A stretch of 64,000 nucleotides of DNA from Amycolatopsis pithecellobii (GTDB lineage: Bacteria > Actinomycetota > Actinomycetes > Mycobacteriales > Pseudonocardiaceae): NCBI RefSeq assembly GCF_009707865.1, contig NZ_WMBA01000011.1, positions 62,001-126,000 of the forward strand. The letters run 5' to 3'. A model generated the notes under the pieces. It was not told where the DNA came from and searched no databases. It saw nothing but the letters and a program-made list of their open reading frames with translations. Positions 4,872 through 20,062 of the stretch are shown in pieces. The stretch's first letter is position 1. Each line of letters begins with the position of its first letter. Made by a program: the position numbers and the translations under genes.

Positions 4872-5012
4872 GTCGGCGAGGATCTGGCGGGTCCGGGTGA
4901 AATGCGCGGAAAACCGGGAACCCGGAACGCGTGCCGTCGTACCGCGTGGTCCACGCACCCCCGCTGCTGCGCCACTTGAACCTGAAGCTGGCACAGATCC
5001 CGGCCTGACGCT

Positions 5013-5078: not shown

Positions 5079-5083
5079 ATCTT

Positions 5084-6286
5084 TTACCGTGCGGCCTCGA
5101 AGATCGCGGCCATTCCCTGCCCGCCGCCGATGCACATCGTCTCGAGGCCGTAGCGACCGTCGCGGCGGCGGAGTTCGTGCAGCATCGTGGTCATCATCCG
5201 CACGCCGGTGGCCGCGATCGGATGCCCCAGCGAGATGCCGGAGCCGTTGACGTTCAGGCGGCCGGTGTCGCGCCATCCCCAGGCCTCGGTCACACCGAGT
5301 ACCTGGCACGCAAAGGCTTCGTTCAACTCGACCAGGTCCATGTCGTCGAAACCGAGGCCCGTGCGGGCGAAAAGCTTCGCGACGGCGGGCACCGGACCCA
5401 GTCCCATCGTCGCCGGGTCGCAGCCCACCGCGGTCCAGCCGGTGAGGAATCCCGCCGGCACCAGTCCCAGCTCGTCCAGGCAGTCTTCGGCGACGACCAG
5501 GCAGGCGGCGGCCGCATCGTTCTGCTGGCTCGCGTTCCCGGCGGTCACCGTGCCGCCGGGAAGCACGGGGCGCAGCTTGGCGAGCGTCTCGAGATCGGTC
5601 CCGGGACGGACACCCTCGTCCCGCGCGAACACCTGTGGTTCGGCGCCCCGCCGTCCGGGCACGATCACCGGAACGATCTCGTCGTCGAACCGCCCGGCGG
5701 ACCAGGCCTTCGCCGCCTTCGCATGGCTCTCGGCCGCGTAGGCGTCGGCGTCCTCGCGGGTGATATCGTATTTCCGCGCGACGTTCTCGGCCGTCTCGAC
5801 CATGCCGCTGATGGCTCCGAATCGCCACTCGGGCTGCGCGCGCTCACGACCCCGATCCAGCCGGTCGTACAGCCGGACCCCGCCGGAACGGCTCCCCCAC
5901 CGCACCCCGGTCGTGTAGTGCTCGACATTGCTCATGCTCTCGACACCGCCCGAGAGGACGACATCGGCGGCGCCGGTCTGCACCATCATCGCCGCCGTCA
6001 CGATCGCCTGCAGGCCACCGCCACAGCGCCGGTCGATCTGCAACCCCGCGACCTGCTCGGGCAACCCGGCGTGCAGGGCAACCCACCTGCCGACGCACGG
6101 CGTCTCGGAATTCGCATACGACTGCGCGAAACTCACATCGTCGATCCGGCCCGGATCGATCCCCGACTTCTCCACCACCGCACGCACGACCGTGGCCGCC
6201 AGGTCCTCCACCGGCACGGTCCGCAGCGCCTTGCCGAAGACGCCGACGGGTGTCCTCAAAGGACACACGATGGCCGCTCGCCTCAT
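5084..6286 (-). CDS. Thiolase (acetyl-CoA C-acetyltransferase family)
   Basis: A 400-residue thiolase of the degradative type. The acyl-accepting Cys88 lies in DRRCGGGLQA, His355 in ISLGHPIAATG, and the general-base Cys385 in CIGGGQGMA, so all catalytic residues are present. ATG at 6286 is preceded by AAAGGAG and is preferred to the longer frame from 6313. It is the last gene of the eleven-gene operon, four bases after the CoA-transferase stop, and should carry out the final thiolytic step releasing acetyl-CoA (or another acyl-CoA) from a 3-oxoacyl-CoA. With the upstream class I CoA-transferase subunits it parallels the 3-oxoadipate end-steps, but I cannot claim that substrate. Confidence 0.88.
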   Translation of the reverse strand: MRRAAIVCPLRTPVGVFGKALRTVPVEDLAATVVRAVVEKSGIDPGRIDDVSFAQSYANSETPCVGRWVALHAGLPEQVAGLQIDRRCGGGLQAIVTAAMMVQTGAADVVLSGGVESMSNVEHYTTGVRWGSRSGGVRLYDRLDRGRERAQPEWRFGAISGMVETAENVARKYDITREDADAYAAESHAKAAKAWSAGRFDDEIVPVIVPGRRGAEPQVFARDEGVRPGTDLETLAKLRPVLPGGTVTAGNASQQNDAAAACLVVAEDCLDELGLVPAGFLTGWTAVGCDPATMGLGPVPAVAKLFARTGLGFDDMDLVELNEAFACQVLGVTEAWGWRDTGRLNVNGSGISLGHPIAATGVRMMTTMLHELRRRDGRYGLETMCIGGGQGMAAIFEAAR

Positions 6287-6290
6287 CCGG

Positions 6291-7550
6291 TCACACTCCT
6301 TTCGCCGCCGCAAGGGCCGCTTCCGTTACCTCGTCGAGCTCGGCGCGTGCCTCCGGCGCCGCGATCGCGATCATGCGCTCGGCTCGTTGCCGGAGCGACA
6401 GCCCACGCAGGTCGGCGATCCCGTGCTCGGTCACCACCACGCCCGCGTCGCTGCGCGGGGTACTGACCGGGCCGGTCAGCTTCGCGACGACGCGGCTCAC
6501 CGGCCCGGCACGCGAGGGCAGCATGATCACCGGGACACCGCCACGGGACCGGGCCGCGCCGCGCAGGAAATCCACCGCACCGCCCACCGAACCGACATAC
6601 CGGCCGCGAGCGACCTCGGCGTTGACCGCACCGGTGAGGTCGACCTCGATGGCGGAGTTCAGCGCCACCAACTTCTCTTGCGCCGCAAGCACATCCGGAT
6701 CATGGGTGTAGGACGTCTCGCGAAGTAGGATGCGCTCGTTTCGATGGGCATAGCGGAAAAGCCGGTCGCCGCCGAGCAATATCCCGCCGACCGCGACCCC
6801 CCGGTCGACCGACTTACGTTCACCCGTAACGACTCCCTGCTCCATCAGATCCACCAGCGCCTCGGGCAACAGTCCGGAATGGACACCGAGTTGACGCCGG
6901 CCGGTGAGCCCGGCGAGCACCGCCTGTGCGAGCGACCCGATCCCCACCTGGAGCGTCGCCCCGTCTTCGATCAGCTCCGCGACGTTCGCGGCGATCGCCT
7001 TGTGCACCGCGGTCGGTTCGGTGACCGGATATTCGGCCGGCGCGTGCCGGGACGGGACCACCACGGTGAGATCGTCGGCCGTAAGTGCAGGGCCGCCGTA
7101 GGTCCACGGTACGGCCGGGTTGACCTCACCGATGATCACGCGCGCTTTCGGTAGCACGTCGGCGACGTAGTCCCGCGCGAGCCCCAGGCTGTAACGCCCG
7201 CCGGAGTCGGGTGGCGACAACTGGAGCAGCACCACATCGGCGCGAAGCAGGTCCGGAAGGGACGAATAGTGCGCGGGCAGCAGGTCGGCCGCATTCGCCT
7301 CGTGCAGCGCCGAGTTGGCACCGGCACCGGTATACGAGGTGAACCGCAGCAAAGCCGCATGCTCCGGGTGAATCAGCCCGGCCACCGGAATGCCGAGGAA
7401 GGCACTGAGGTCCTCGGCCCAGGGCCGCGAGATCAGCCGGTTCACCAGGGTCAGCGGTTCGGCGCAGGCCTGCGCCCACAGGACCCCGTCCCCCACCCGC
7501 AAGTAGCGGCGAAAGTCCAGTTCCTCAACGGAATTCAGCGTTGTCACCAC
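6291..7550 (-). CDS. Acetyl-CoA hydrolase/transferase family protein (Cat1/4-hydroxybutyrate CoA-transferase-like)
   Basis: A 419-residue member of the Cat1/AbfT family. Recognisable blocks are GIGSLAQA at 204-211 and LNSAIEVDLTG at 298-307, the family's C-terminal signature. In characterised transferases the catalytic Glu follows His-Thr/Ser (HTE); here the matching site reads His224-Ser225-Gly226, so the usual nucleophilic Glu appears to be missing. The protein may act by another mechanism, use another residue, or be a diverged hydrolase. GTG start at 7550, five bases after the stop of the MmgE/PrpD gene. Part of the eleven-gene operon. Confidence 0.8.
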   Translation of the reverse strand: MVTTLNSVEELDFRRYLRVGDGVLWAQACAEPLTLVNRLISRPWAEDLSAFLGIPVAGLIHPEHAALLRFTSYTGAGANSALHEANAADLLPAHYSSLPDLLRADVVLLQLSPPDSGGRYSLGLARDYVADVLPKARVIIGEVNPAVPWTYGGPALTADDLTVVVPSRHAPAEYPVTEPTAVHKAIAANVAELIEDGATLQVGIGSLAQAVLAGLTGRRQLGVHSGLLPEALVDLMEQGVVTGERKSVDRGVAVGGILLGGDRLFRYAHRNERILLRETSYTHDPDVLAAQEKLVALNSAIEVDLTGAVNAEVARGRYVGSVGGAVDFLRGAARSRGGVPVIMLPSRAGPVSRVVAKLTGPVSTPRSDAGVVVTEHGIADLRGLSLRQRAERMIAIAAPEARAELDEVTEAALAAAKGV

Positions 7551-7555
7551 GAGAA

Positions 7556-8893
7556 TCAGCCCACCGGCCGGAGTTGCCGGCTGAGTGCGGTCAGCGAGCC
7601 GTTCTCGGCGAGTCCGCCGACCGCGGAGATCACCCCATCGATCCGCTCCCCCGACAGTGCCGGGCTCGCGTACTTGCGGAACTTGGCGATGACGCCATCG
7701 GCGGTCAGATACGCGCCGCCCCGGACCTCCTCGCGCAGCACCTCTCCCCCTTCGGTGGTGACCCTGACACGGACAGTCGGAGTGGCGGGATATCGCGCTT
7801 CGAGATCCGCGTGCTCTTCGACGAAGATCCGCTTCGCGAGCTCACCGATCGGTGGGTGCAACGGGCCCAGATAGCGGTCGAGGCCGAGCTCACCGTCGAC
7901 GAGCATCGCGGCGACGCCGAACTGGTTGCTCATCTGACGCTCGAGCGTCGTGTCCAGCGAGCTGCCGTTGTCGCAGCCGGGATACCGCTTGCCCATGCCG
8001 TAGGTCTCGACCACGGCCTCGGCGACCTGCTCACCACGCAGCCCGCGACCCGTCAGCCGCCGGGTCGCCTCGATCGCTTCCTGGGTGAAGGCGCAGGACG
8101 GGAACGCCTTGAAATAGACGTCCGACACCGCCCACCTTCCGGTTTCCCCGACGGCGACAGGTGTTCCCGGCGAAACCCCGCAGAACGCCTGAAGCAGTCC
8201 CGATGGTCCTTCGAGGATCCCGGCCGTCCCGGCGACGCGCTGTGCCGCGAGCTGGGCCGCGAGCACCCCGGCCCGCGCGGCAGCGCCGTTCTGGAAGTAC
8301 ACGTCGGGTGTTCCCCCGTAGGCCCAGGCCGTCGTTCCCGAGGCCGAACTCCCGGCCAGACCGAGCGCATCGACCTTCTGCTCGCGGTCGAGGCCGAGCA
8401 AATGGGCCGCCGCCATCGCCGTGCCGAACGGCCCGAACATGCTGCTCGGCCGCAGCCCTCGCGCGATGAAATCGGGAGTCGTCATGACCGCGGCGACCCG
8501 CGCCAGCGCCTCGTAACCGGCGATGACCGCCTCCAGCACCTGGCGTCCGCTGGAGCCGAGTGACTCGCCCAGCGCGAGCACGGCCGGGACCACCATGGTG
8601 CCGGCGTGACTGCGACTCGCCGGGTGCATGTCCTCCTGCACGATGGAATGAGCGTGCACGCTGTTGACATAGATCGCGTCCAGCACGCGATGCGTGGTGC
8701 CGCGCGACCACACCGTGCTGGGGCCGGCCACGTCGTCGATCAGCGCGTTCGCGGCCACGCTCCACGCGAAATCGCGGCCACCGAACGAGCAGGCAAGCGC
8801 GTCGAGCACGCACAGCGCCGCCTTGTCCAGCACGTCACGGCCGACGTCCGGCAGGCGCTCTTCGATGTCGCTGACGATCGCACGGGTCAGCAT
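7556..8893 (-). CDS. MmgE/PrpD family protein (2-methylcitrate-dehydratase-like)
   Basis: 445 residues, full family length. Recognised from the N-terminal pattern (ALCVLDALACSFGGRDF), the internal NSVHAHSIVQEDMHP, SRSHAGTMVVPAVLALGE and FKAFPSCAFTQEAIEA. Family members include 2-methylcitrate dehydratase, cis-aconitate decarboxylase and iminodisuccinate epimerase, so the likely chemistry is dehydration, decarboxylation or epimerisation of a small di- or tricarboxylate. Its 5' end overlaps the 3' end of the racemase-like gene before it by seven bases. It is a central enzyme of the operon but its substrate is open; iminodisuccinate-type chemistry would fit the amidohydrolase and racemase neighbours. 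Confidence 0.8.
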   Translation of the reverse strand: MLTRAIVSDIEERLPDVGRDVLDKAALCVLDALACSFGGRDFAWSVAANALIDDVAGPSTVWSRGTTHRVLDAIYVNSVHAHSIVQEDMHPASRSHAGTMVVPAVLALGESLGSSGRQVLEAVIAGYEALARVAAVMTTPDFIARGLRPSSMFGPFGTAMAAAHLLGLDREQKVDALGLAGSSASGTTAWAYGGTPDVYFQNGAAARAGVLAAQLAAQRVAGTAGILEGPSGLLQAFCGVSPGTPVAVGETGRWAVSDVYFKAFPSCAFTQEAIEATRRLTGRGLRGEQVAEAVVETYGMGKRYPGCDNGSSLDTTLERQMSNQFGVAAMLVDGELGLDRYLGPLHPPIGELAKRIFVEEHADLEARYPATPTVRVRVTTEGGEVLREEVRGGAYLTADGVIAKFRKYASPALSGERIDGVISAVGGLAENGSLTALSRQLRPVG

Positions 8894-9591
8894 TCCGGAA
8901 CCTCCCGCGGCCGGATATCGGAGCGCAGCGTGCGCACGATCGCGTCGATCACCGCCGAATTCGCGGTCACCACCGGCTTTCCGCTCCTGGCTTCGATGTC
9001 CCGCATGGCCTCGTAGCCACGCAGGTTGCCGCAGGCGATCAGGATCGAGTCCGCCTCCGCGCGCGGGCGGGCGAGGGTGAACTCGACGATTTCCTCCGGC
9101 AGAACCCGCCCCACGTCCGCGTTGCGTCCGATGGCCATGTTGGCCTCGGCGACGACGTCGAACCCGGCGGCCTCCAGCCGGCCTCGCACGGCGTCGTGCA
9201 GCGGCTGCTCATACGGGGAAACGAGCATGATCCGGTGCGCCCCGACGCCGTGCAGGGCATCGATCAGGCACGGGTTCACACCCAGCACCGGGCTGCCCGC
9301 GAGTTCCGATATCTCGCCGATGAACGTCGCGGCCCGCTCGACCCCGAGCAGCGAAACCGCCGACGAGCAGCCGAAAACCGTCAGATCGGGCCGGTGGTGC
9401 GCCAGCTTCCGGGCCGCCTCGGGGGCGTGCGTCCGCACCATCGCCAGCTCGCCGTCCGGTGTCACCGGCTCGGGCAGGTGCATCGTCTCGACATGCAGGC
9501 GGGCGAAATCCCGCAGTCCGGTGCGGATATCCGGCGCGGTCACGGTGTTGGAGTCCGGGATCATCAGCCCCACCTCGAACGGTGCGCTCAT
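8887..9591 (-). CDS. Aspartate/glutamate racemase superfamily protein, maleate-isomerase/arylmalonate-decarboxylase type (copy 1)
   Basis: 234 residues. Two cysteines sit where maleate isomerases and Asp/Glu racemases carry their catalytic pair: Cys75 in TVFGCSSAVS and Cys187 in LIACGNLRG. Arylmalonate decarboxylases keep only the second, so a racemase or cis-trans isomerase is more likely. The N-terminal VGLMIPDSNT and VTPDGELAMV are typical of the maleate-isomerase group. ATG at 9591 overlaps the amidohydrolase stop as ATGA; the upstream part of the frame (to 9639) is inside that gene. A related copy is encoded at 10972-11658 on the other side of the amidohydrolase. Confidence 0.82.
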   Translation of the reverse strand: MSAPFEVGLMIPDSNTVTAPDIRTGLRDFARLHVETMHLPEPVTPDGELAMVRTHAPEAARKLAHHRPDLTVFGCSSAVSLLGVERAATFIGEISELAGSPVLGVNPCLIDALHGVGAHRIMLVSPYEQPLHDAVRGRLEAAGFDVVAEANMAIGRNADVGRVLPEEIVEFTLARPRAEADSILIACGNLRGYEAMRDIEARSGKPVVTANSAVIDAIVRTLRSDIRPREVPEC

Positions 9592-10979
9592 GACGGATTG
9601 ACCTTGCTGTCGCTGAAGTCCTCGGTGGACGGTCGCCACGTCCCGTCGAGCCGAATGCGGTCGGCGGCAGGCCGGGCGGCGTTGACGGCGTCGACGACGG
9701 CGTCGCGGGAGGCAGCCGCCCGTTCCCGCAGCCGCGGGAGGTCGATCCCGGCCAGGGTGCCGTTCTCCTTCACGATCTCGCCGCGTACCAGGACCGTGTC
9801 GACGAGCCCGGGATGGGCCTGCAGGACGACGGTGCCGGCCAGGTTGTTGACCGGGAAGACAGACAGGTCGTCACCCCGCAGCAGCACCAGGTCCGCCTCC
9901 TTGCCGACCCGGATGCTGCCGATCCGGTCCGCCAAACCGCAGGCACGGGCGCCCTCGATGGTGGCGAACTCGACGACGTCACGGCAGGTGATCCGGTCGC
10001 GCCCCGGGGATGGTTCCGGCGTGTCCAGCCCACGTTGGGTGACGAACGTCGTCCGCATCGTGCCGAACATGTCGCCACCGACGGCCGCGCAGTCGTCGAT
10101 CGACAGGCTCGGCCGGATACCGGCGTCCAGCAGCCGTCCCGTGGCCGGCCAGCCGAAGCCCATCAGCAGCTCGACGTCCGGGCTGACCGACGCGGTGGCG
10201 CCGACATCGGCCATCAAGCGGAGTTCGTCGTCGGCCAGGGTGGTGCAGTGCACCACGGTGGTCCGGTCGTCGAGCAGGCCGTGTTCGTGCATACGCCCCA
10301 CCGGCCGCCGCCGGCCCCACTCGGCCGAACCCCCGTGCACCGTCACGCGCAGCCCGAGCTCGCGGGCCAGCGCCACGTCGTCCTTGACCACCCCCATCCG
10401 GCTGTACTGCGGACCCCGCAACGCCAGCGCAAGGGTCACCAGGTCATCGTCGTGGAAGCCGTCCCGGATCCGCCGGAGATCGGCCTCGATGGGATCGTTG
10501 CCCGGCAGCCCGAACCCGCCGCTGTAGCCGAAAACCGATCGGCCGGGACAGTCCCGCAGCCCCGCGGCGGCCGCATCCGTGTGATCCGGCGTGCTGAGGC
10601 AGTGTGACCAGTCGAGCATCGTGGTGATACCCGAGTTGAGCGCCTCGGCCCGGCCGAGCAGGTTTCCGAGGTAGACGTCCTCGGGGCGGAAATGCGGCTT
10701 CAGCGTGCCGTGCAGGCCGGCCCCGTACTCCTGCAGCGACCAGTCCGCGGCCAGCCCGCGAAAGGCCGCCTGCCAGGTGTGCCGGTGGGTGTCGACGAAC
10801 CCGGGCAGAACGAGGTGGCCGCTCGCATCGATCACGTGCGCGTCACCGGCCGTCAGCCCGGTCCCGATGGCCGCGATCCGGCCGTCTTCGATCAGGATGT
10901 CCGCCCGCGCCTGGTCGCCGGTCCCGGAATCGAGGGACAGCACCGCGGCCGAACTGATCAGGATTCGCTGCTCAGACAC
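9588..10979 (-). CDS. Amidohydrolase (cytosine/atrazine/SAH deaminase-like TIM barrel)
   Basis: 463 residues, a metal-dependent hydrolase of the AtzA/TrzN/SAH-deaminase branch. The metal-binding pair His65-x-His67 is in GFVDTHRHTW, further ligands are in RVTVHGGS and TTVVHCTTL, and the conserved acidic motif is LSIDDCAA. The N- and C-terminal beta-sandwich strands (ILIEDGRIAAIG and DLVLLRGDDLSVFPVNN) are present. GTG at 10979 is chosen because GGAGG is five bases upstream; the GTG at 10985 lies inside that ribosome site. It overlaps the preceding gene by eight bases. Expected to deaminate or hydrolyse a C-N bond in a ring or amidine, supplying substrate to the racemase-like neighbours. Confidence 0.85.
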   Translation of the reverse strand: MSEQRILISSAAVLSLDSGTGDQARADILIEDGRIAAIGTGLTAGDAHVIDASGHLVLPGFVDTHRHTWQAAFRGLAADWSLQEYGAGLHGTLKPHFRPEDVYLGNLLGRAEALNSGITTMLDWSHCLSTPDHTDAAAAGLRDCPGRSVFGYSGGFGLPGNDPIEADLRRIRDGFHDDDLVTLALALRGPQYSRMGVVKDDVALARELGLRVTVHGGSAEWGRRRPVGRMHEHGLLDDRTTVVHCTTLADDELRLMADVGATASVSPDVELLMGFGWPATGRLLDAGIRPSLSIDDCAAVGGDMFGTMRTTFVTQRGLDTPEPSPGRDRITCRDVVEFATIEGARACGLADRIGSIRVGKEADLVLLRGDDLSVFPVNNLAGTVVLQAHPGLVDTVLVRGEIVKENGTLAGIDLPRLRERAAASRDAVVDAVNAARPAADRIRLDGTWRPSTEDFSDSKVNPS

Positions 10980-11658
10980 GATCACCTCCGTGCTTCGCGA
11001 GCCACAGCTCGATCTTCTCGATGAGTGCCGAGTTCACCGATACGGCCGGCACGCCCGCCTCCCGGCTGATGTCCGCCAGTGCCTCCCGCGAGCGAAGCGC
11101 GCAACCGGCCAGCATTACGCCGTCGCCGCTGGGATCGACGTGCGCGAGGGCGAACTCGGTGATCTGTGCCGGTGATATCGCGGTGATCTCGGCGGTACCG
11201 GCGATCTCGAGGCACGCGGTCAGGACGACCTCGACGTGCTGCTTGAGCAGTTCGCCGCGCAGGGTCAGGGTCAGCGGCCATTCGTACGGCGTCAGCAGCA
11301 CCGGCCGTTTGATCGCGTTGCGGCGCAAGCTCGCCAGAAACGCCTGGTTCGCACCGATCACCGGGACCCCGGTCGTGCCGCGAAGGTCGTCGCACAGGTC
11401 CTGTTCGCCGTCATGGCCCAGCAATGCGGCCGCCGACGAGCAACCGACGATCACCACGTCCGGGCGCCGGGCGGCCAGTGCCACCGCCGCGCGCGGCAGG
11501 TCGTCGCCGACCATCTTCAGTTCGCCCTCGGGTGTCACCGGTTCGTGCCGGGCGAGTGGCTCGACGTCGACGGTCGCACGCGTGCCCAGCGCGGACCGCA
11601 GATCGGCGGCGAGGGTCGGATTGCTGCTGGGCACCAGAAGCCCGATCCGGGGTGTCAC
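10972..11658 (-). CDS. Aspartate/glutamate racemase superfamily protein, maleate-isomerase type (copy 2)
   Basis: 228 residues, paralogous to the protein at 8887-9591. It again has both cysteines: Cys73 in VIVGCSSAAAL and Cys186 in LAGCALRS, plus VTPEGELKMV near the N-terminus. GTG at 11658 overlaps the MFS stop as GTGA; the same frame runs open upstream to 12543 but that is read-through of another frame of the MFS gene. Having two dual-Cys copies on either side of one amidohydrolase suggests two different stereochemical or isomerisation steps in one route rather than simple redundancy. Confidence 0.82.
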   Translation of the reverse strand: MTPRIGLLVPSSNPTLAADLRSALGTRATVDVEPLARHEPVTPEGELKMVGDDLPRAAVALAARRPDVVIVGCSSAAALLGHDGEQDLCDDLRGTTGVPVIGANQAFLASLRRNAIKRPVLLTPYEWPLTLTLRGELLKQHVEVVLTACLEIAGTAEITAISPAQITEFALAHVDPSGDGVMLAGCALRSREALADISREAGVPAVSVNSALIEKIELWLAKHGGDRV

Positions 11659-13145
11659 GAGGCGTCCTCCCCGCTGGTCACGCGCCGGTCCCGGGGTGCC
11701 GCGGTGCCCGGAACCTCGTCGACGGGCAGGGACACCACGGTGCCCAGTTCCTCCGCCTCGATCTCCTCGAGGGTCTTGTTCCTGGTCGCCACACCGAACA
11801 CGAGCACCCCCAGCCCCCCGATCACGAGCATGCCCATGAACAGCGCGAACACTCCGCCGAAGCCGAGCGCGGAGTAGCTCGTGCCGACGACGATGGGTGC
11901 CGCGATGGCACCGACCCGGCCGACCGCGGAGCACAGCCCCGAGCCGGAGGAGCGGATCGCGGTCGGGAACACCTGGGGCGTATAGGCATAAGTACAGCCG
12001 GAGACACCGCTCATGAAGAACGACAGCAGGCAGCTCGCGGCCAGGATCGTCGCGGTCGTGCTCACCTGGGACAGGATGAACGCGGAAATCGCACCACCTA
12101 CGAAGTAGCCCACGATCACCGTCTTCTGGTCGAACCGGGCGAACAAGCGGGCCGCGGAGTAGTAGCCGGGTGCCTGCGCGACGTAAATCAGGATGGTGAA
12201 CGTGAAGCTGCTGGTGATCGTGTAGCCACGGGCGATGAGCAGGCTCGGGATCCAGGTGTTGAACCCGTAGAAGCAGAAGAACACCACCAGCCACAGGAAA
12301 CAGGTCGAGAGCGTGACCCGGCGCAGTCCGGGCTGGAGCAGATCGGCGAAGCCGCGCAGTGACCGCAGTCCGCCCCGGATCTGCAGCCGTGGCCGCGGCA
12401 CGGACATGTCGTCCACTCCTGGCGCCGGGCCGGGTTCGAGCCCGCTTCCGCGTTCGAAGCGGGCGACGACCTCGTGGGCTTCCCGCCGCCTGCCGCGCAG
12501 CAGGAGCCACCGGGGCGACTCGGGCAGGTACCGCCGCCACCACAGCAGCAGCAACACCGGTGTCGCGCCGAGGACCTGCAGCCAGCGCCAGCCTCCGTCG
12601 AGCGGAATCACGAAACGGCCGGCCAGTGCGGCGATGATCCAGCCCAGCGCGAAGAACGCCACCAGCGAGCCGACGAACCGGCCGCGATGCCGGGCCGCCA
12701 CGAATTCGCTGGCATAGACGGAGATCACGGCCGCCTCGGCGCCACAGCCGAGCCCGGTGACCACCCGCGCCGCGAACAGCAGCTCCCAGTTCGGGGCCAG
12801 CGCACCGAGCAGGCTGCCCAGGCAGAACAGCAGCAGGGCGTAGGTCATCACCCGGCGCCGGCCGAAGGCGTCGCCGATCGCACCGGAGGCGAGCGCCCCG
12901 AACATGAACCCGATCAGCACGCTGCTGCCCAGTACGCCCGTCTGTCCCTTGTTCAGATGCCAGACGACGGAGACCGCGGGCAGGATGAGGGCGAGCGTCG
13001 CGGTGTCCGCGGCGTCGAACGCGTAGCCGAGACCGGCCTGAAATCTCAGGCGCCGCAACGGTTTGGTGATGTCCAGCCGCTCGAGCCGGGCGAGGATCGC
13101 GGTGTCGCGGCCGGGCGGGGACAGTGGTTCTCCGTGCACGTCCAT
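11655..13145 (-). CDS. MFS transporter, sugar-porter/aromatic-acid symporter type
   Basis: 496 residues with twelve predicted membrane spans. Loop 2-3 signature GDAFGRRRVMTYALLL, loop 4-5 AARVVTGLGCGAEAAVISVY and the family block RYLPESPRWLLLRGRR after span 6 identify the SP/AAHS group. ATG at 13145 follows AAAGGAGCTCAA; the frame to 13205 is not used. It sits in the middle of the catabolic operon, which makes it the probable importer of the operon's substrate, likely an organic acid or heterocyclic acid. The C-terminal tail is long, charged and cytoplasmic. Confidence 0.87.
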   Translation of the reverse strand: MDVHGEPLSPPGRDTAILARLERLDITKPLRRLRFQAGLGYAFDAADTATLALILPAVSVVWHLNKGQTGVLGSSVLIGFMFGALASGAIGDAFGRRRVMTYALLLFCLGSLLGALAPNWELLFAARVVTGLGCGAEAAVISVYASEFVAARHRGRFVGSLVAFFALGWIIAALAGRFVIPLDGGWRWLQVLGATPVLLLLWWRRYLPESPRWLLLRGRRREAHEVVARFERGSGLEPGPAPGVDDMSVPRPRLQIRGGLRSLRGFADLLQPGLRRVTLSTCFLWLVVFFCFYGFNTWIPSLLIARGYTITSSFTFTILIYVAQAPGYYSAARLFARFDQKTVIVGYFVGGAISAFILSQVSTTATILAASCLLSFFMSGVSGCTYAYTPQVFPTAIRSSGSGLCSAVGRVGAIAAPIVVGTSYSALGFGGVFALFMGMLVIGGLGVLVFGVATRNKTLEEIEAEELGTVVSLPVDEVPGTAAPRDRRVTSGEDAS

Positions 13146-13173
13146 TTGAGCTCCTTTGCTGAATGGAGTGAGG

Positions 13174-14379
13174 TCAGGAGTGGTCGGGCGATTCCTCCAG
13201 GCCACCGGACTCGGCGAGCCGGGCGATCAGTTCGCCGGGCAGGCCCAGTTGCCGGAGGCGCTCGGCGGTGGGCCTTCGCAACGACGGTGGGGCGAGGGTG
13301 TCCGTCCGCTCGTCGCTGAGCCGGATCGGGCTGCGGACGAGGCGGCCGGAGGCGTCCGCACCGAGCGGATGAGTCGCGACCGTCCCCAGCGCCTGCACCT
13401 GCGGGTGCTCAAGGGCCTCCGGTACGGACATCACCGGCCCCTGGGGAATGTCGTGTTCGGCCAGCAGGGCGGACAGCCGGGCGGTGCTCGAGCGCGAGGT
13501 CCACGACGCGACGAGCTTGTCGACCTCATCCCGGCGTGACATGCGGACCGCCGACGTGTCCAGCCCCTCGGCGTCGGCCGTGACGTCGAGGGCACGGACC
13601 AGCCTCGCCCACTGCCCGTCGTTGCCGACCGCCAGCACGATGTGCCCGTCGGACGTCGGGAAGACGCCGTAGGGCGTCACGTTCGGATGCGCGTTGCCCA
13701 GTCGCTGCGGCACCATGCCCGCAATCAGATATCCCGCCGTGAGGTTCGGCTGGATGGCCAGCACCGACTCCAGCAGGGACAGGTCCACCCGCTGGCCGCG
13801 CCCGGTCGTGGTGCGCCCGTTCAGGGCGGCGACGATGCCGACCGCGGCGTAGAGCCCGGTGCAGATGTCGACGATCGCGACCCCGGACCGCATCGGCGCG
13901 CCATCGCGCTCCCCCGTCACGCTCATCAGCCCGCCCATGGCCTGCATCAGTACGTCGTATCCGGGCTGCTGGGCCAGCGGACCGGTGCGCCCGAAACCGG
14001 ACACCGAGCAGTAGACCAGCCCCGGGTTCGCCGCCGACAGGTCCTCGTAGCCGAGCCCGAGTTCCTCCGCCATGCCGACGCGGAAGTTCTCCACCACCAC
14101 ATCGGAAGTACGGGCGAGTTCCCGGACGAGCTCGAGCCCGCTCGGTGACTTGAGGTCGACGGCCATCCCGGTCTTGTTGCGATTGACCGTCTGGAAATAC
14201 GTGCTGTCACCGCCCGGACCGTAGGGCGGCCCCCAGGCCCGCAGGTCGTCCCCGGCGCCCGGCCGTTCGATCTTGACCACGTCGGCGCCGAGATCGGCCA
14301 GCACCATGGTGCAGTACGGACCGGCCAGCACCCGGCTCAGGTCCAGCACCCTGATTCCCGCCAGTGGTCCGCCTGTCAT
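13174..14379 (-). CDS. CaiB/BaiF-family (class III) CoA-transferase
   Basis: 401 residues, full family length. N-terminal LAGIRVLDLSRVLAGPYCT and VVKIERPGAGDD are diagnostic; the catalytic Asp of formyl-CoA transferase (Asp169) corresponds to Asp171 in GVAIVDICTGLYA. ATG at 14379 overlaps the preceding stop as ATGA. The gene is in the same operon as a class I (A/B subunit) transferase and a Cat1-type protein, so the route encodes three mechanistically distinct CoA-transfer families. Its job is probably to activate a carboxylic acid intermediate as a CoA thioester. Confidence 0.87.
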   Translation of the reverse strand: MTGGPLAGIRVLDLSRVLAGPYCTMVLADLGADVVKIERPGAGDDLRAWGPPYGPGGDSTYFQTVNRNKTGMAVDLKSPSGLELVRELARTSDVVVENFRVGMAEELGLGYEDLSAANPGLVYCSVSGFGRTGPLAQQPGYDVLMQAMGGLMSVTGERDGAPMRSGVAIVDICTGLYAAVGIVAALNGRTTTGRGQRVDLSLLESVLAIQPNLTAGYLIAGMVPQRLGNAHPNVTPYGVFPTSDGHIVLAVGNDGQWARLVRALDVTADAEGLDTSAVRMSRRDEVDKLVASWTSRSSTARLSALLAEHDIPQGPVMSVPEALEHPQVQALGTVATHPLGADASGRLVRSPIRLSDERTDTLAPPSLRRPTAERLRQLGLPGELIARLAESGGLEESPDHS

Positions 14380-15176
14380 GCGGCTCTCCCTTCGCCCGGA
14401 AGCAGGTAGTGGCTGGCACGTGCCTCGTCCAGGACAGCATGCGCGGCCGCGAGCTCCTGTTCGCTGGGATCCGGCAGAACGCGCAGCGATGCGGGCGGTT
14501 CGGCCGGGAACCACGTGAAGCACTCGCGTGCCTGCGCCCACGTGACACCGGTATGCAGGGCGTCGGCGGTGATGCCGTCGGCGTCGTTCACGGCGAACCG
14601 GCCGAGCGGCGTGATCAGCACCTTCGGACCCGTTCCGTCCGGATAGCCGTGGGCTCGCCGTTCGCCGGGCTCGCGCAGATATCCGGGGCTGGTGATGTAG
14701 TCGACGATCCTGCGGGGGAAACCGCGGGCGCTCGTGCTGGTCGAAAGCAGCGTCAGACCCCGGCCCAGCGCGGCCAGCTCCGTTCCCCCGCCCGAGCCGG
14801 GCAGCCGGACACGCGGCGCGTCGTAGTCACCGACGACGGTGGTGTTGACGTTGCCCCGCCGGTCGACGATCGGCGCCCCGAGCACGGTGCGTGTCACGCG
14901 GCCACGCGCGAGCCAGCCGCACAGCGCGTCGAAACACGTTCCCCAGTAAGGGGATCCGACCGCCGCACGCAGATCGGACGGCGACGTCGACAGGGTCGGC
15001 GTCGCGGCGTCCTCGACGACGCCGCTTTCGTAGACCGCGACGAGGTTCGGTGCGTGCGTGCGGCGGGCGATCCGGGCCGCGAGCATCGGCCAGTGGAAAC
15101 CGACGAACGCCACGTCCTCGTCGGCGTATTCGCGTGCCGCGGTCACCAGGAACCGTTCGAAGAGTGTTGTGGTCAC
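14376..15176 (-). CDS. Class I CoA-transferase subunit B (glutaconate CoA-transferase beta-like)
   Basis: 266 residues. Partner of the adjacent A subunit. Glu50 in NLVAVYESGVVED occupies about the position of the catalytic Glu54 of glutaconate CoA-transferase beta, so this appears to be a true transferase rather than the steroid-ring hydrolase IpdB, which is related but does not rely on that residue. SPYWGTCFDALCGWLARGRV and VTRTVLGAPIVDRRGNVN are further family blocks. GTG start at 15176 overlaps the A-subunit stop (GTGA). IpdAB-like hydrolase remains an alternative. Confidence 0.82.
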   Translation of the reverse strand: MTTTLFERFLVTAAREYADEDVAFVGFHWPMLAARIARRTHAPNLVAVYESGVVEDAATPTLSTSPSDLRAAVGSPYWGTCFDALCGWLARGRVTRTVLGAPIVDRRGNVNTTVVGDYDAPRVRLPGSGGGTELAALGRGLTLLSTSTSARGFPRRIVDYITSPGYLREPGERRAHGYPDGTGPKVLITPLGRFAVNDADGITADALHTGVTWAQARECFTWFPAEPPASLRVLPDPSEQELAAAHAVLDEARASHYLLPGEGRAA

Positions 15177-16081
15177 CAGGCACCTCGCAGAGTCAGGGCC
15201 GCGCGGGTCTCCTCACCGAGGCGGTCACGGTAACCCTTGTGGCTGCCCGTGCCGTACACCCATTCCCGCAGATAAGCGTCGAAGCCCTCAGGCGTGCGGG
15301 TGGCCGCGCCGTACAGATCGTGATGGTCGAGATCGCGCACGTAGTACCCCGAACAGTCGGTGGGATGGGCGCTCCACGGTTCGACGACGGCCGCCTCGAC
15401 GAGGAACCCCGGTGCGACCGTCAGCTCGGGACGCGACCGGATCACCTCCGGCTCGACGATTTCCTCGGCGATCACGAAAACCCGGTCACAGGCGGCGATC
15501 GCCATCCGAATCTCCGCGGTCGGCCCGAACATCTGCGCGTTGCCGTAGCGGTCGATCCGCTGGACGTGGAAGATCCCGAGCCGCGGCCGGATCGCCTTGA
15601 CCACCGTGACCGGCTCGCCCCCGAACGGCGAAGGGACGGTGCCGAGCTTGTCCGGCCACGTCCGCCGCACCTCGAAGTGCCCGGCACCGCTCATCGGCGT
15701 GGTCGGCAGGAACGGCAGCCCCCACGCACCGGCGGCGAGTCCCATCGCGAACGAACCGTAGCTGAGCTCGTCGACCTCGACCGGATGCGGCACCCCCTCC
15801 TCGACCGCGCGCCGAAAGGCGTGTGCCGGTTGCGGCCCGACCGAATTCCACACGTGGCAGAACAGCAGCCGCCGGACACACCCGGCCCCCACCAGCATGT
15901 CGACGAGAAGTCCACCGCTGGTCTTGAGAATCTCCAGATCCCGGCGCTCCTGGCGGACGATCTCGTGGGCCAGCGCAATCGGATCACTGAACGCGAAACC
16001 GCCGACGAACAGTTGTTGTCCGTCCTGGACGTGTTCGGCGACCAGTTCGTCGAGGCCGAGCAGGGCGACCGGCTCAGGCAT
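15173..16081 (-). CDS. Class I CoA-transferase subunit A (glutaconate CoA-transferase alpha-like)
   Basis: 302 residues. The start of the domain, VQDGQQLFVGGFAFSDPIAL, is the usual glycine-rich opening of class I CoA-transferase alpha chains, and VKAIRPRLGIFHVQRIDRYG is the typical later block. ATG at 16081 overlaps the end of the first operon gene by eight bases (ATGCCTGA), and its stop overlaps the B subunit, so A and B are translationally coupled as expected for a heteromer. Substrate pair unknown; the A/B pair moves CoA between an acyl-CoA donor and a dicarboxylate-type acceptor in the characterised relatives. Confidence 0.84.
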   Translation of the reverse strand: MPEPVALLGLDELVAEHVQDGQQLFVGGFAFSDPIALAHEIVRQERRDLEILKTSGGLLVDMLVGAGCVRRLLFCHVWNSVGPQPAHAFRRAVEEGVPHPVEVDELSYGSFAMGLAAGAWGLPFLPTTPMSGAGHFEVRRTWPDKLGTVPSPFGGEPVTVVKAIRPRLGIFHVQRIDRYGNAQMFGPTAEIRMAIAACDRVFVIAEEIVEPEVIRSRPELTVAPGFLVEAAVVEPWSAHPTDCSGYYVRDLDHHDLYGAATRTPEGFDAYLREWVYGTGSHKGYRDRLGEETRAALTLRGAW

Positions 16082-17057
16082 CGGTGACTTCGAACATCTC
16101 GAACTTCGCCGCATCGACGAGTTCCGGGCGGAACTTCCGCAGGTTCAGGGCATCGATCGCGTTCAGCCGGAAGAAGCGCTCCAGGTTCTCCTCGCGGAAG
16201 TACTTGGTCTTGCCGCCCCACTGGAAGCCGTTTTCGATGTACTGCGCGAACTGGTCGATCCAGATCTTCGGGCTGATCGCCGGGTAGTCACTGCCGTAGA
16301 CGAACTTCTCCGGCAGCGTCGAGTTCATGTACTGGAAAACGATCGGCTGTGTGTCGTAGATGTGCTTGGGCAGCCACCCCGAAAGGTCGCAGTACACATG
16401 CTCGTGCCGCCACATCACGGCCAGCGCCTCTTCCGTCCACGGCCAGCCGAAGTGGCTCATGATGATGCGCAGATCCGGGAAGTCGGTCGCGACCTCGTCG
16501 ATGTATTCCGGCTTGCAGCTGCGAATGTGGCACTGCGTCATCCGGGTCGATCCGGTGTGGAAGAGGATCGGCAGGTCGTACTCGACGCAGCGTTCGTAGA
16601 TCGGGTACAGCTTTTCCTTGTCGTTGGGCCAGAAATCCTGGTATGCGGGGTGGAACTTCAGGCCGGAGACCTTGAGGTCGTTGACGCAGCGGTCCAGTTC
16701 GCGAAGCGAGTTCTTCACGGGCATGTTCGGATCGATGCCGGCGTAACCGATGTAGAGATCGGGCACCTTTTCGCAGTACTGCGCGATGTACTCGTTGGGA
16801 AGCGACGAGCCCCAGGTGCAGCAGGCGTTCATGTTGAGCACGACCGCGGCCTGCACGTACCCGCCGATCCGGATCTGTTCGGCACTCGTCTCGATCGACA
16901 TTGTCCGCTTGTTCTTGTACCAGCTCTCGTGATGCGGAGCTTCCGGACGGCTCCCGAAGAAATCGTGCGCCTCCTGGAACGACACCCCCTGTCCCTTCAC
17001 CACCTCTTCGGTGAAGGGATGCGTGTGGATGTCGATGATCCCCTTGAATCCGAGCAT
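16074..17057 (-). CDS. TIM-barrel amidohydrolase (amidohydrolase_2; ACMSD/gamma-resorcylate-decarboxylase-like)
   Basis: 327 residues, first gene of the operon. His11-x-His13 in GIIDIHTHPF, a Lys/His pair in VSGLKFHPAYQDF, His in PILFHTGSTR, His in IIMSHFGWPW and Asp in FVYGSDYPA give the full metal and acid set of the amidohydrolase_2 group, whose members decarboxylate aromatic acids or hydrolyse cyclic and CoA-activated compounds. ATG at 17057 was chosen because the barrel begins immediately after; GAGAGGA lies about eleven bases upstream. The 71 extra residues of the longer frame have no family character. The many Tyr/Trp/His residues and somewhat lower GC3 set it a little apart from its neighbours. 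Confidence 0.82.
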   Translation of the reverse strand: MLGFKGIIDIHTHPFTEEVVKGQGVSFQEAHDFFGSRPEAPHHESWYKNKRTMSIETSAEQIRIGGYVQAAVVLNMNACCTWGSSLPNEYIAQYCEKVPDLYIGYAGIDPNMPVKNSLRELDRCVNDLKVSGLKFHPAYQDFWPNDKEKLYPIYERCVEYDLPILFHTGSTRMTQCHIRSCKPEYIDEVATDFPDLRIIMSHFGWPWTEEALAVMWRHEHVYCDLSGWLPKHIYDTQPIVFQYMNSTLPEKFVYGSDYPAISPKIWIDQFAQYIENGFQWGGKTKYFREENLERFFRLNAIDALNLRKFRPELVDAAKFEMFEVTDA

Positions 17058-17594
17058 GCGTGCGCTGTCCTCTCTGGCGCTGATGATGGCGTCGTTGCCC
17101 TCGGTGCTGACCGAGAAGCTCACCCGAAAGATGATAAAGTATTCCGGAGTCTGGTTGCAAGACTGAGTCGAAACCTGGCGCTTCAGCCAGGGACACACAG
17201 CCGGCGGCTCGTGAGCCTTTCCGCTAATTTCCTTTTGATACAAGGCTTTTCGTCGGCAAACGTCGGCCAATGACCGCTGGATGACGCCTCGGAGGCCACC
17301 TCAGGTCGACGGCTTAGTCGCGGACTTTGTGATACTTTATCGGCCGCAGTGAGGCTGTGGAGTCGTTCGACCGAGGAAGCGGCTTCCTCGGTGACGCGCC
17401 CCGTCGACGCCGCGACGTCCGCCCACCAAACGGAGCTGCGATGCCGGAGGAGTCCGGCCGGATCGTCAACGGGTTCGGGTCGTACCGGCTAGGGGTTTTT
17501 CGCCACCAGGAGCCGTCCCCGACCTCAACCTGCACTGGCTTCATCCGATGTGATAACATATCCGCTGCGGAATCATTGTGACGAGGGGACGAGC
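17058..17594. promoter_or_regulatory. Divergent regulatory region between the 11-gene operon and the GntR gene
   Basis: 537 bp without a convincing gene. It contains GATAAAGTAT at 17133-17142 and its exact reverse complement ATACTTTATC at 17332-17341, both in otherwise GC-rich sequence, and a near-perfect palindrome ATGTGATAACAT at 17548-17559. The first site lies about 76 bp upstream of the operon start codon, the last 36 bp upstream of the GntR start. I read these as candidate binding sites for the divergent GntR/FCD regulator; no experimental support. Confidence 0.5.
17548..17559. promoter_or_regulatory. Candidate GntR operator (ATGTGATAACAT)
   Basis: A 12-bp palindrome with one mismatched base pair (G/A at the inner positions), AT-rich in a high-GC context, 36 bp before the GntR start codon. 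Position suggests autoregulation. Confidence 0.4.
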
Positions 17595-18287
17595 GTGGCG
17601 ACCGCCTTAGGACCGTTGACCGTCGGCGATACCTCCAGTCGCCAGAACCTCCGCGACGAGATCGCGTCGCACATCCGTGGGCTCATCTTCTCCGCCCACT
17701 TGCTGCGGGGCCAGCGTATCGATCCCACTGAGCTCGCCGCCGTGTTCGGCGTGAGCAAGCTGCCGGTGCGCGAGGCGCTGATCCAGCTGGAGTCAGAAGG
17801 CCTGGTCGACAATATCGCGCGCCGCGGGGCTTTTGTCGCGATGCTCGACCCTGATGACTTCTACGATCACTTCCAGGCCTTCGGCAAGATCGTCGCCGTC
17901 GCCGCGGAGCGGGCCGCCACCAGGATCTCCGAGGAAGACCTCGATCAGCTCGAACGGCTGGTCCGCCGCATGGAAGCATGGGACGAAAACGACCGTGAGC
18001 GTGACGTGGAACGGCTCAACCACCAGTTCCACCGGATCATCAACCGCTCCGGTGGTTCCCGGCGGCTGAAAGGCATCATCCGCTCGCTCGCCGCCAGCAT
18101 TCCGGAGGATCTCTACCATCGCAGCCGGGGCTGGACCCCCGAGGCGCAGGCGGAACACCGCCTCATCCTGACCGCGCTGAGGGCACGAGACGGGTCCGTC
18201 GCCGCGGTGGCCTCGGCCCGCCACGCCGAAGCCGGCGGGCGTGACCTGGTGGAGTCGCTCCGCGCTTCGGGCTTCTGGGCCAAATAG
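17595..18287 (+). CDS. GntR-family regulator, FadR/FCD subfamily
   Basis: 230 residues. N-terminal winged helix: QNLRDEIASHIRGLIFS, PTELAAVFGVSKLPVREALI and LESEGLVDN are textbook GntR. The C-terminal all-helical FCD domain carries Asp/His metal-ligand text such as RLNHQFHRIINRSG and EHRLILTALRARDG. GTG at 17595 follows GAGGGG and is preferred over 17550. FCD regulators bind carboxylic acids and usually repress adjacent catabolic operons, so it is the best candidate controller of the divergent eleven-gene operon and perhaps of the acyl-CoA ligase that follows convergently. Confidence 0.88.
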   Translation: MATALGPLTVGDTSSRQNLRDEIASHIRGLIFSAHLLRGQRIDPTELAAVFGVSKLPVREALIQLESEGLVDNIARRGAFVAMLDPDDFYDHFQAFGKIVAVAAERAATRISEEDLDQLERLVRRMEAWDENDRERDVERLNHQFHRIINRSGGSRRLKGIIRSLAASIPEDLYHRSRGWTPEAQAEHRLILTALRARDGSVAAVASARHAEAGGRDLVESLRASGFWAK

Positions 18288-18336: not shown

Positions 18337-18347
18337 ATGTCGCCGGC

Positions 18348-19874
18348 CTAGCTGGCGATGCGAAACCGGCGGATTTTTCCGACGCTCGTGCGTGGGAGCT
18401 CGTCGATGAAATGCCACGCCCGGGGCCGGGCGGCGGGGGCGAGATGCCGCACCGCCCACTCCTGGAGGTCCGCCACTGCCGGCGGGGCCGACTTGTCCTT
18501 GGGCACGACGTAGGCCACCGGAACGTGGTCGCGCACCGGATCGGGCTGGGCCACCAGCGCGACTTCCAGCACCCCCGGGGCCTGGGCCACCGCCGCCTCG
18601 ACCTCGGTGAGGCTGACGTTCTCGCCGGCCACCTTGATCACGTCGTCGACCCGGCCGACGAAGCGCAACGCGCCGTCCTCACCGCGGACGGCCAGGTCGC
18701 CGGTGTGGAACCACGACCGATCCCCGTCCGGCGTGAACGCTCTCGCGTTGATCTCCGGGGCGTCGAGATAGCCGGCGAACAGGTCCTTGCCCCGCACGCC
18801 GCGCACCCAGATCTCACCCGGCACCCCGTCCGCAACGTCCTGGCCGTCGACGACAAGCCGGACCTCGCGGCCACCGAACGGCGGGCCGATGATGTCGGGC
18901 ACCGGGGGTTCGCGGGTGTCCGCGGTGACGATCGCGATGGTCTCGGTCATGCCGTACAGCTGGCGTGGCAGCGTGCCGGCGAGCTCGCCGAACGCCTTGT
19001 GATGCTCGGTGCCGAGGCTCTGCGCGAACCAGACGTGGTCAAGGGCGAGCGGAGGCTCGCTGTCCGGGCAGCGTGCCAGGATCATCCGGATCGGCGCCGC
19101 GAACAGGCTGGCGTGCGTGACGTCGAGTTCGCGTGCGGCGGGGACCCAGCCCGACGCGGAGAACGACGCGGTCAGCGCCACGCTCGCACCCACGCCGATC
19201 GCGGACGCAAAGCAGTAGTACTGCGCGTTGGCGTGAAAGAGCGGCAGCGTGACGAACCACCGGTGCCGCGCCGCCAGCTTCGCCGCCGCGGCCATCGCGG
19301 TGGCGGCCGAGACATAGTTGGCGTGGGTGACCTCCACGCCTTTCGGCTCGGACGTGGTGCCGGACGTGAACATCACGGCGAGCCGGTCTTCCGGGGTGAC
19401 CGGCTCGCCCCGTAACAGGGGCGCGCCCTGTAACAACGGCGCCCCGGGTTCTAGGTCGGAGGCGTCTTCGGCGAGCTCGATGACGGCGGCGCCACCGGCA
19501 CCGTCCTGGAAGGCGGCGAGCCGGGTGGTGGCCACCATCGAGATTGCCGGCGCCACGCGGCGGAGCTGGCTCCGGATATCGCGCGACGCCGACGCCGGGT
19601 CCACCGGGACCATCCAGGCGCCGAGCCGCGCGACCGCCAGCCAGAGCGCCACGAACGCGGGGCAGTTGCGGAGCACGAGGTGGACCGCGGCACCCGGCCG
19701 CACCCCCGACTCGGCGAGTGTCCCGGCCACCCGGGAAACCACGTCGTCGAACTCGGCGTAGGTCCAGCTGGTGGTCTCGCCGGAGTCCGCACGGAACAGG
19801 AGAAACGGCGACTCGCCGTACTCGTCGACGGCTCGCCGCCACAGGTCGCTGAAGGTGCCGGTGCTCACGCTCAC
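18348..19874 (-). CDS. Class I adenylate-forming acyl/aryl-CoA ligase
   Basis: 508 residues. All ANL motifs are visible: FTSGTTSEPKGVEVTH (A3 phosphate-binding), YGMTET (A5), WFHTGDLAV (A7), GRVDDVIKVAGENVS (A8 hinge) and the catalytic Lys500 in TSVGKIRR. GTG at 19874 has GTGAGG eight bases upstream; earlier starts would add residues without family character. It would activate a carboxylate as its CoA thioester with ATP. The gene is divergent from an MDR/hydratase pair and convergent with the GntR gene; a 14-bp palindrome lies in the divergent promoter. Acyl specificity is not readable. Confidence 0.88.
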   Translation of the reverse strand: MSVSTGTFSDLWRRAVDEYGESPFLLFRADSGETTSWTYAEFDDVVSRVAGTLAESGVRPGAAVHLVLRNCPAFVALWLAVARLGAWMVPVDPASASRDIRSQLRRVAPAISMVATTRLAAFQDGAGGAAVIELAEDASDLEPGAPLLQGAPLLRGEPVTPEDRLAVMFTSGTTSEPKGVEVTHANYVSAATAMAAAAKLAARHRWFVTLPLFHANAQYYCFASAIGVGASVALTASFSASGWVPAARELDVTHASLFAAPIRMILARCPDSEPPLALDHVWFAQSLGTEHHKAFGELAGTLPRQLYGMTETIAIVTADTREPPVPDIIGPPFGGREVRLVVDGQDVADGVPGEIWVRGVRGKDLFAGYLDAPEINARAFTPDGDRSWFHTGDLAVRGEDGALRFVGRVDDVIKVAGENVSLTEVEAAVAQAPGVLEVALVAQPDPVRDHVPVAYVVPKDKSAPPAVADLQEWAVRHLAPAARPRAWHFIDELPRTSVGKIRRFRIAS

Positions 19875-19931
19875 CGACGTAGCCTCACCTCCCGAATGCG
19901 CACACGCAATGCCGTTCTTCGCACGTTCCGC

Positions 19932-19945
19932 GTGCATCGATGCAC
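19932..19945. promoter_or_regulatory. Perfect 14-bp palindrome in a divergent promoter (GTGCATCGATGCAC)
   Basis: Perfect dyad, preceded immediately by a second inverted repeat GCACG-TTCCG-CGTGC (19921-19935). It lies 58 bp upstream of the acyl-CoA ligase start and about 118 bp upstream of the MDR start, so a regulator bound there could control both directions. The nearby GntR (17595) and LysR (21836) products are candidates. Confidence 0.5.
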
Positions 19946-20062
19946 AGCCGGCCGGGGCCGATGGGCGTGCGTTCCCGCACATGCGGGGTGCGGGATCCGC
20001 TATTGCCCCCGCCGCTGACCGGCACCGACGATGGGCTCGCAGCGTGGAAGGGAACCAGGAAC

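Follow-up and report, generated by a model that had tools for sequence, protein, structure and literature searches.

What does the eleven-gene, operon-like cluster of Amycolatopsis pithecellobii degrade, and do its enzymes act as their family names imply? The cluster lies in a stretch of 64,000 nucleotides (contig NZ_WMBA01000011.1, positions 62,001 to 126,000; hereafter the window, with coordinates counted from its first letter), and open-frame calls place all eleven genes on the minus strand, running from 17057 to 5084. In order of transcription they encode an Amidohydrolase_2 protein (AH2), the two subunits of a class I coenzyme A (CoA) transferase (GctA-like and GctB-like, together GctAB), a class III CoA-transferase (CaiB), an MFS importer, an isomerase-family protein (rac1), a second amidohydrolase (AHcyc), a second isomerase-family protein (rac2), an MmgE/PrpD-family protein, a Cat1-like protein and a thiolase (Table 1). 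A first-pass annotation made from the letters alone had described a catabolic set with no named pathway and, in agreement with it, no characterised match was found in the open-licence literature searched. Our preferred answer, to which we give a probability of about 0.38, is a GntR-regulated operon that breaks down a cyclic carboxylic acid, possibly one with nitrogen, and that is built as a mosaic of modules recurring separately elsewhere. Several of its enzymes may act otherwise than their family names say, because active-site residues implied by those names are missing from the Cat1-like protein, the MmgE/PrpD protein, rac1 and AHcyc.

The Cat1-like protein aligned with 4-hydroxybutyrate CoA-transferase 3eh7 (E 1e-68) without gaps over the HTE site and reads HSG where CoA-transferases have HTE, indicating that the nucleophilic Glu is absent. 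The QxGhG loop described for Cat1-type CoA-transferases (PMC11659651) is present (QVGIG at 201), and the protein scored 157 bits on the butyryl-CoA:acetate CoA-transferase model, whose cut-off is 675. The Glu site was compared in 60 homologues, made up of eight plasmid loci (of 76 records) and all 52 matches other than the window's own: Gly was found in 42, Glu in 13, Thr in two, Ala in two and Gln in one. At 40% identity or more every homologue had Gly (36/36), whereas below 40% Gly was found in 6/24, four of them with gaps, insertions or weak alignment at the site, and Glu in 13/24. A first sample had given Gly in 35/37, and in the widened sample every exception lies below 40% identity. Because of this distribution, the Glu to Gly change, as judged from the alignments, marks the subfamily nearest to the window protein, with canonical relatives further out. 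Gly-type genes often have a thiolase gene beside them (L186-L212 and L218-L220; on plasmids L058, L062 and L179-L184); a thiolase lay within 1.5 kb of the Cat1-like relative in 17 of 37 cases, and for the 29 loci from related genomes this neighbourhood was judged only to about 1.5 kb. The plasmid records label these relatives 'acetyl-CoA hydrolase/transferase C-terminal domain-containing protein'. From such a label one would assign the Cat1-like protein a CoA-transfer step for which its active site is not equipped by the usual glutamyl-anhydride route.

Two Glu-less proteins have been described. ThnP, from anaerobic naphthalene degradation, carries Gly (G238) at the Glu site and moves CoA intramolecularly between two carboxyls of one substrate, and its authors discuss E269 as a possible substitute for Glu (PMC11659651). 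By gapless counting from G226, Ile257 of the window protein stands opposite E269. IpdB has Gly57 at the Glu site, and IpdAB is described as being without CoA transfer between short acyl chains (PMC5380842). ThnP is, in its published description, a single Glu-less enzyme; the Gly found in every relative at 40% identity or more makes a test across a whole subfamily possible.

The MmgE/PrpD protein had iminodisuccinate (IDS) epimerase 2hp3 as its best solved match (E 4e-32). The putative catalytic residues given for epimerases of this family are H85, D88, H99, H150, K198 and K266, and a catalytic Tyr is described in two members (PMC12290011). The window protein keeps H85, H99 and K266 and has Val, Arg and Val at D88, H150 and K198, thus differing at three of the six named residues; Ile stands in the column of Y145, which we take to be the catalytic Tyr of 2hp3. 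The same positions are occupied by Leu, Arg and Val in L170 and L171, with Val at 145. All six residues are kept in four of nine other rows (L123, L155, L159 and L166), and three Rhodobacterales rows keep D88, H99, H150 and K266. The relatives at 42-45% identity (L170 from the window's own genome, L171 and L172) all adjoin a gene for hydantoinase HyuA.

The proteins rac1 and rac2 belong to the arylmalonate decarboxylase (AMDase)/maleate isomerase family, and both score just below the cut-off of the Asp_Glu_race Pfam model. In a 106-row alignment rac2 keeps both Cys of the family, C75 and C187, which we take to occupy the catalytic Cys positions of maleate isomerase and AMDase. The first Cys is also kept in rac1; its second Cys column, which holds Cys in 99 rows, Asp in five and a gap in one, has Gly, with a Cys one residue further on. 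Both proteins have Ala at position 19, against Glu in 91/106 rows. The predicted structure of rac1 (predicted local distance difference test score 93.8) was closest in fold to maleate isomerase 4fq5 (template-modelling score, TM, 0.91). In the isomerase tree, calculated after leaving out matches with a stop codon in the matched stretch, rac1 and rac2 group together (99/91), adjoining L090. A long-branch artefact was rejected as the source of this pairing, since each protein placed alone still joins L090; the branches remain long, and for that reason the tree gives moderate evidence that rac1 and rac2 arose by duplication. Tandem pairs of AMDase-family genes by a GntR gene also occur at L049, L053 and L055, in family genomes including the window's own; these are not the window pair.

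In AHcyc, H65, H67, H215, H244 and D295, presumably the metal-ligand positions, are present, as they are in all 21 distinct relatives taken from the fetched loci (L002-L027 and L058). At the HxxE site, where atrazine chlorohydrolase reads HMAE, AHcyc has Ser218, and none of the 21 relatives has Glu (Val in eight, Asp in four, Ser in two, Cys in two, and Leu, Asn, Trp, Arg and a gap in one each). In amidohydrolase deaminases this Glu is catalytic. The named families matched by AHcyc are mostly C-N hydrolases (best 25 of 63 matches), and its solved relatives include atrazine chlorohydrolase; on dihydropyrimidinase and D-hydantoinase models it scored 56-57 bits, far under the 478 of its own subfamily. 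CaiB adjoins AHcyc relatives in L011, L012 and L027, and on two plasmids such relatives stand beside maleylacetate reductase and intradiol dioxygenase genes.

The first-pass annotation had taken roles from family names and had called AHcyc a 'cyclic-amidine' amidohydrolase. The latter name is in doubt for a protein lacking the HxxE Glu of atrazine chlorohydrolase, as are the family roles of a Cat1-type protein without its Glu, of an MmgE/PrpD protein altered at three named residues, and of rac1 with its displaced Cys. Two further subgroups bear over-specific names, namely the MmgE/PrpD protein together with its HyuA-linked relatives, and amidohydrolases of the PRK08204 subfamily in which the HxxE Glu is missing.

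The gene set itself was confirmed from the open frames and from Pfam, with coordinates, order and strand as first reported; in each of the eleven proteins one or more of the expected Pfam families scored above the Pfam cut-off. Seven of the ten junctions overlap, by 8, 4, 4, 4, 8, 4 and 7 bases, and the remaining three are gaps of 28, 5 and 4 bases, so that the earlier wording, by which nearly every junction overlaps by 4-8 bases, was right for the seven and slightly too strong overall. GC content at third codon positions was 0.82-0.89 across all eleven genes (0.84 in rac1). A scan of 4500-18400 gave four terminator-like sites against 5.1 in shuffled sequences, i.e. no excess, and the one on the operon strand lies within the MFS gene. 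The promoter-like site at 17160-17131 (one found, 0.9 in shuffles) was not used. Because of the gene spacing, we infer that the eleven genes form a single transcription unit. Of ten proteins scanned together against NCBIfam, AHcyc alone passed a curated cut-off among the families shown (best 25 of 39 matches for the MFS importer and best 25 of 63 for AHcyc), and the thiolase passed one in a further scan; substrate names are therefore not transferable from these models.

Pairs of operon genes recur in other genomes: GctA-GctB with the isomerase family, the isomerase or MmgE/PrpD with HyuA, and the Cat1-like gene with thiolase. Isomerase relatives were sought with a single ten-residue pattern derived from a six-member alignment, which misses genomes without the exact pattern; 134 stretches matched, giving 114 relatives (best identity 42%), of which the best 80 were kept with loci reaching 20 kb around the isomerase. 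In loci lacking annotation a simple script made the gene calls; many of the fetched loci could not accommodate the whole set, and those from a single clade do not count as independent. Among the 80 loci, HyuA was found in 33, an aminotransferase in 28, CaiB in 12, PrpD in 11 and GctA in nine; when the operon proteins served as queries, eight loci had both GctA and GctB, and nine had PrpD. At E<=1e-30, rac2 had relatives in two of 389 other genomes of the family (G030 and G1166, both outside the genus; 36-37% identity), and GctA-GctB lies beside each. GctA-GctB was found in 0/16 regions centred on AHcyc or PrpD relatives. Thiolase adjoins GctAB in 9/11 fetched GctB loci other than the window's own, and a CoA ligase adjoins AH2 relatives in 7/7 loci fetched.

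The whole set is rarer than its parts. At E<=1e-24 rac2 was found in 0/18 other genomes of the genus and 0/393 of the class (the genus, class and family sets overlap, each contains the window genome, and they may omit very near relatives), and a scan of viral contigs with rac2 gave no match. AH2 was found at 1e-50 in 3/395 other genomes of the phylum (39-42% identity). Among 209 loci other than that of the operon itself, the most operon families at any one was four of eleven (L155, L164 and L180). The suggestion that Amidohydrolase_2, GctAB, two isomerases and PrpD would be conserved together thus held for pairs and failed for the whole set. Nine loci (L048, L116, L126, L127, L134, L136, L138, L141 and L142) combine GctA-GctB and an AMDase-family isomerase with a luciferase-like monooxygenase, a molybdenum hydroxylase and DUF6282, although not every partner is present everywhere and the Pfam check covers L048, L116 and L126; this set is possibly a ring-acid pathway.

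For the operon read as a mosaic pathway for a cyclic acid, the following order of steps can be proposed. The MFS protein would import the acid and AHcyc would hydrolyse its ring or a C-N bond. The product would be isomerised by rac2, possibly helped by rac1 and by the MmgE/PrpD protein with its altered site, and GctAB and/or CaiB would attach CoA taken from an acyl-CoA donor. Next, the Cat1-like protein without its Glu might relocate CoA within a dicarboxylyl-CoA, as described for ThnP, or cleave a C-C bond, as described for IpdAB; the thiolase would remove an acyl-CoA unit, and AH2 would hydrolyse or decarboxylate an intermediate. The C-N hydrolysis proposed at first is possible from the HyuA genes in 33 of the 80 isomerase loci and at all three PrpD relatives, and is made less sure by AHcyc having no HxxE Glu. 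The substrate may carry nitrogen, as the C-N hydrolases among the families around AHcyc and the HyuA-linked relatives of rac and PrpD suggest. A more specific joint claim, which we rate as possible but less likely than not, is that the widespread and often thiolase-linked Glu-less Cat1-like subfamily relocates CoA in a dicarboxylyl-CoA via an internal anhydride, or cleaves it, and that the operon is a new ring-acid pathway in which a Glu-less amidohydrolase opens the ring, the duplicated isomerase and the altered MmgE/PrpD protein isomerise, GctAB or CaiB loads CoA, the Cat1-like protein relocates it and thiolysis follows.

Several results weigh against this mosaic pathway or against parts of it. 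No locus other than the operon's own showed more than four of the eleven families, and therefore the case for all eleven acting together comes from a single genome. Four of the eight loci with linked GctA and GctB (L127, L134, L136 and L138) are near-identical, and the isomerases linked to GctA-GctB fall into a single tree fork (17 rows), which does not include the window pair; from this, the linkage may reflect one ancestral event plus the window. The closest AHcyc relatives have neighbourhoods unrelated to the operon, the AHcyc family was found in 0/80 isomerase loci, and the missing HxxE Glu in AHcyc and its relatives makes a deaminase role less sure. These last two points also speak against nitrogen in the substrate, as does the lack of HyuAB in the operon; the HyuAB family, moreover, also includes carboxylases. 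By Pfam, none of the eleven genes encodes an oxygenase, acyl-CoA dehydrogenase, enoyl-CoA hydratase or 3-hydroxyacyl-CoA dehydrogenase, and the thiolase substrate must therefore arise otherwise. Finally, the Gly changes of ThnP and of the window protein may be independent, since ThnP is described as up to 46% identical to a canonical Cat1 enzyme (PMC11659651), whereas the window protein lies far under the cut-off of the canonical model.

The eleven genes could instead have come together by chance from two or three short catabolic units, and their products would then not serve one pathway. That pairs recur independently, that none of the other genomes examined contains the full set and that 28 bases separate CaiB from the MFS gene are all consistent with this, but overlaps cross the module borders, terminator-like sites are no commoner than in shuffles and a single regulator gene flanks the operon start; we consider chance joining rather unlikely. 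A substrate free of nitrogen, with AHcyc acting on a C-Cl, C-O or ring C-C bond of a halogenated or plain cyclic acid, would agree with the missing HxxE Glu, with atrazine chlorohydrolase among the solved relatives of AHcyc and with the maleylacetate reductase and intradiol dioxygenase genes by its plasmid relatives. It agrees poorly with the C-N hydrolases that dominate the named matches of AHcyc (best 25 of 63) and with the HyuA-linked surroundings of the rac and PrpD relatives, which suggest C-N chemistry, and it appears unlikely.

A hydantoin- or ureide-type pathway, with AHcyc in place of HyuAB and with rac1 and rac2 racemising either the ring or the acid formed by its opening, is just as improbable. 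The HyuA and aminotransferase genes near isomerase relatives, HyuA beside all three PrpD relatives, and allantoin and hydantoin racemases lower down in the rac1 fold search would fit it; on the other hand, the scores of AHcyc on dihydropyrimidinase and D-hydantoinase models are far under that on its own subfamily, none of the eleven genes was recognisable as coding for a carbamoylase or ureidase, and it would be odd for such a pathway to require three CoA-transferase-family systems. Least credible of all is a variant itaconate/methylsuccinate cluster, in which a CoA-transferase and an MmgE/PrpD isomerase would act on a branched C5 dicarboxylate. The MmgE/PrpD and Cat1-like genes are indeed neighbours in the operon, and the published cluster likewise pairs itaconate CoA-transferase with an MmgE/PrpD methylsuccinate isomerase (PMC12290011). 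However, itaconyl-CoA hydratase, citramalyl-CoA lyase and acyl-CoA dehydrogenase are all absent from the eleven genes, half of the named PrpD residues differ and the Cat1-like protein has no transferase Glu.

The other CoA-transferases look intact at their catalytic residues. YESG of the GctB-like subunit aligns with VESG of 1poi_B, whereas the 5n02 family has VGS at the same place; GctAB as an IpdAB-type hydrolase was rejected, given the Glu in GctB. In glutaconate CoA-transferase it is the beta-subunit Glu that forms the anhydride (PMC5380842). CaiB matched 10uh_A (E 1e-96), an Asp of which aligns with the one in IVDI at 169-172, and Asp171 presumably marks the position of the catalytic Asp of class III CoA-transferases; its best NCBIfam match, succinate-glutarate CoA-transferase, scored 387 bits, under the cut-off of 750. 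The thiolase has CGGGLQ, GHP and CIGGGQG, with Cys, His and Cys. By a pattern check only, HxH, FH, SH and GSD motifs are present in AH2. In the AH2 open frame, GC at codon positions 1 and 2 (0.54 and 0.39) is below that of its neighbours, and the gene is perhaps of separate origin.

Upstream of the operon, the palindrome between AH2 and the divergent regulator gene is matched nowhere else in the window when up to three mismatches are allowed, and in none of 100 shuffled sequences; a search of the 7.9 Mb genome gave a single copy of its 17-base core. Elsewhere in the window, an FAA-hydrolase-family gene followed by an intradiol dioxygenase-family gene (52782-54688) forms a possible separate aromatic catabolic set, and two FMN luciferase-type monooxygenases, of the CE1758 family (23382-24461) and the NtaA/DmoA family (49764-51164), were seen.

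Table 1. The eleven operon genes, in order of transcription, and the features upstream of them (window coordinates).
Feature	Position	Strand	Basis and remarks
AH2, Amidohydrolase_2 metal-dependent hydrolase or decarboxylase, first gene	16074..17057	-	PF04909, 153 bits
GctA-like alpha subunit, class I CoA-transferase	15173..16081	-	PF01144; glutaconate CoA-transferase 1poi_A, E 1.7e-35
GctB-like beta subunit	14376..15176	-	YESG, catalytic Glu (E50) kept
CaiB/Frc-family class III CoA-transferase	13174..14379	-	PF02515, 414 bits; Asp171 kept
MFS importer	11655..13145	-	Best NCBIfam TIGR00895, aromatic acid/H+ symport, 228 bits, under cut-off 418.55
rac1, arylmalonate decarboxylase/maleate isomerase family	10972..11658	-	PF17645
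AHcyc, Amidohydro_1, subfamily PRK08204	9588..10979	-	NF006056 ('hypothetical protein'), 477.6 bits, cut-off 391
rac2, same family as rac1	8887..9591	-	PF17645; maleate isomerase 2xec, E 6.5e-13
MmgE/PrpD-family protein, altered active site	7556..8893	-	PF03972 and PF19305
Cat1-like protein, Gly226 at nucleophilic Glu site	6291..7550	-	PF13336
Thiolase, PRK06205 subfamily	5084..6286	-	NF004853, 648 bits, cut-off 551
23-base palindrome, candidate operator	17370..17392		Divergent intergenic region, GntR gene to AH2; 11-base perfect arms
GntR/FCD regulator, divergent	17550..18287	+	PF00392 and PF07729; start uncertain, candidates 17550, 17595, 17616
AMP-binding acyl-CoA ligase, beyond regulator	18348..19982	-	PF00501, 203 bits; pathway membership uncertain

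Compared with known systems, the operon combines familiar families with altered sites. Both GctAB-like subunits match glutaconate CoA-transferase (1poi), with the beta-subunit Glu present, but the window pair matches no NCBIfam model. The isomerases resemble maleate isomerase and arylmalonate decarboxylase in fold (rac1 model, TM 0.91 to 4fq5) and in the two Cys of rac2, and differ from them in the displaced second Cys of rac1 and in Ala at 19 of both. AHcyc shares the amidohydrolase fold family and the HxH, His, His, Asp set with the ATZ/TRZ deaminases and chlorohydrolases, whereas the HxxE Glu of the latter is missing in AHcyc and its 21 relatives. The MmgE/PrpD protein is of the same family as IDS epimerase and methylsuccinate isomerase, with H85, H99 and K266 in common, but D88, H150 and K198 are replaced, as in the HyuA-linked L170 and L171. 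The pseudomonad itaconate/methylsuccinate cluster also joins a CoA-transferase-family gene to an MmgE/PrpD gene; the window set differs from it in these residues and in having no hydratase, lyase or acyl-CoA dehydrogenase genes. ThnP, compared here by its published description, is likewise a Cat1-like protein whose nucleophilic Glu is replaced by Gly (G238, against G226 in the window protein), although it belongs to the anaerobic thn operon and is up to 46% identical to a canonical Cat1. The steroid ring-opening hydrolase IpdAB, as described, is a class I CoA-transferase relative with the same Glu to Gly change; it is GctAB-like, whereas in the window the GctAB-like pair keeps its Glu and it is the Cat1-like protein that has lost it.

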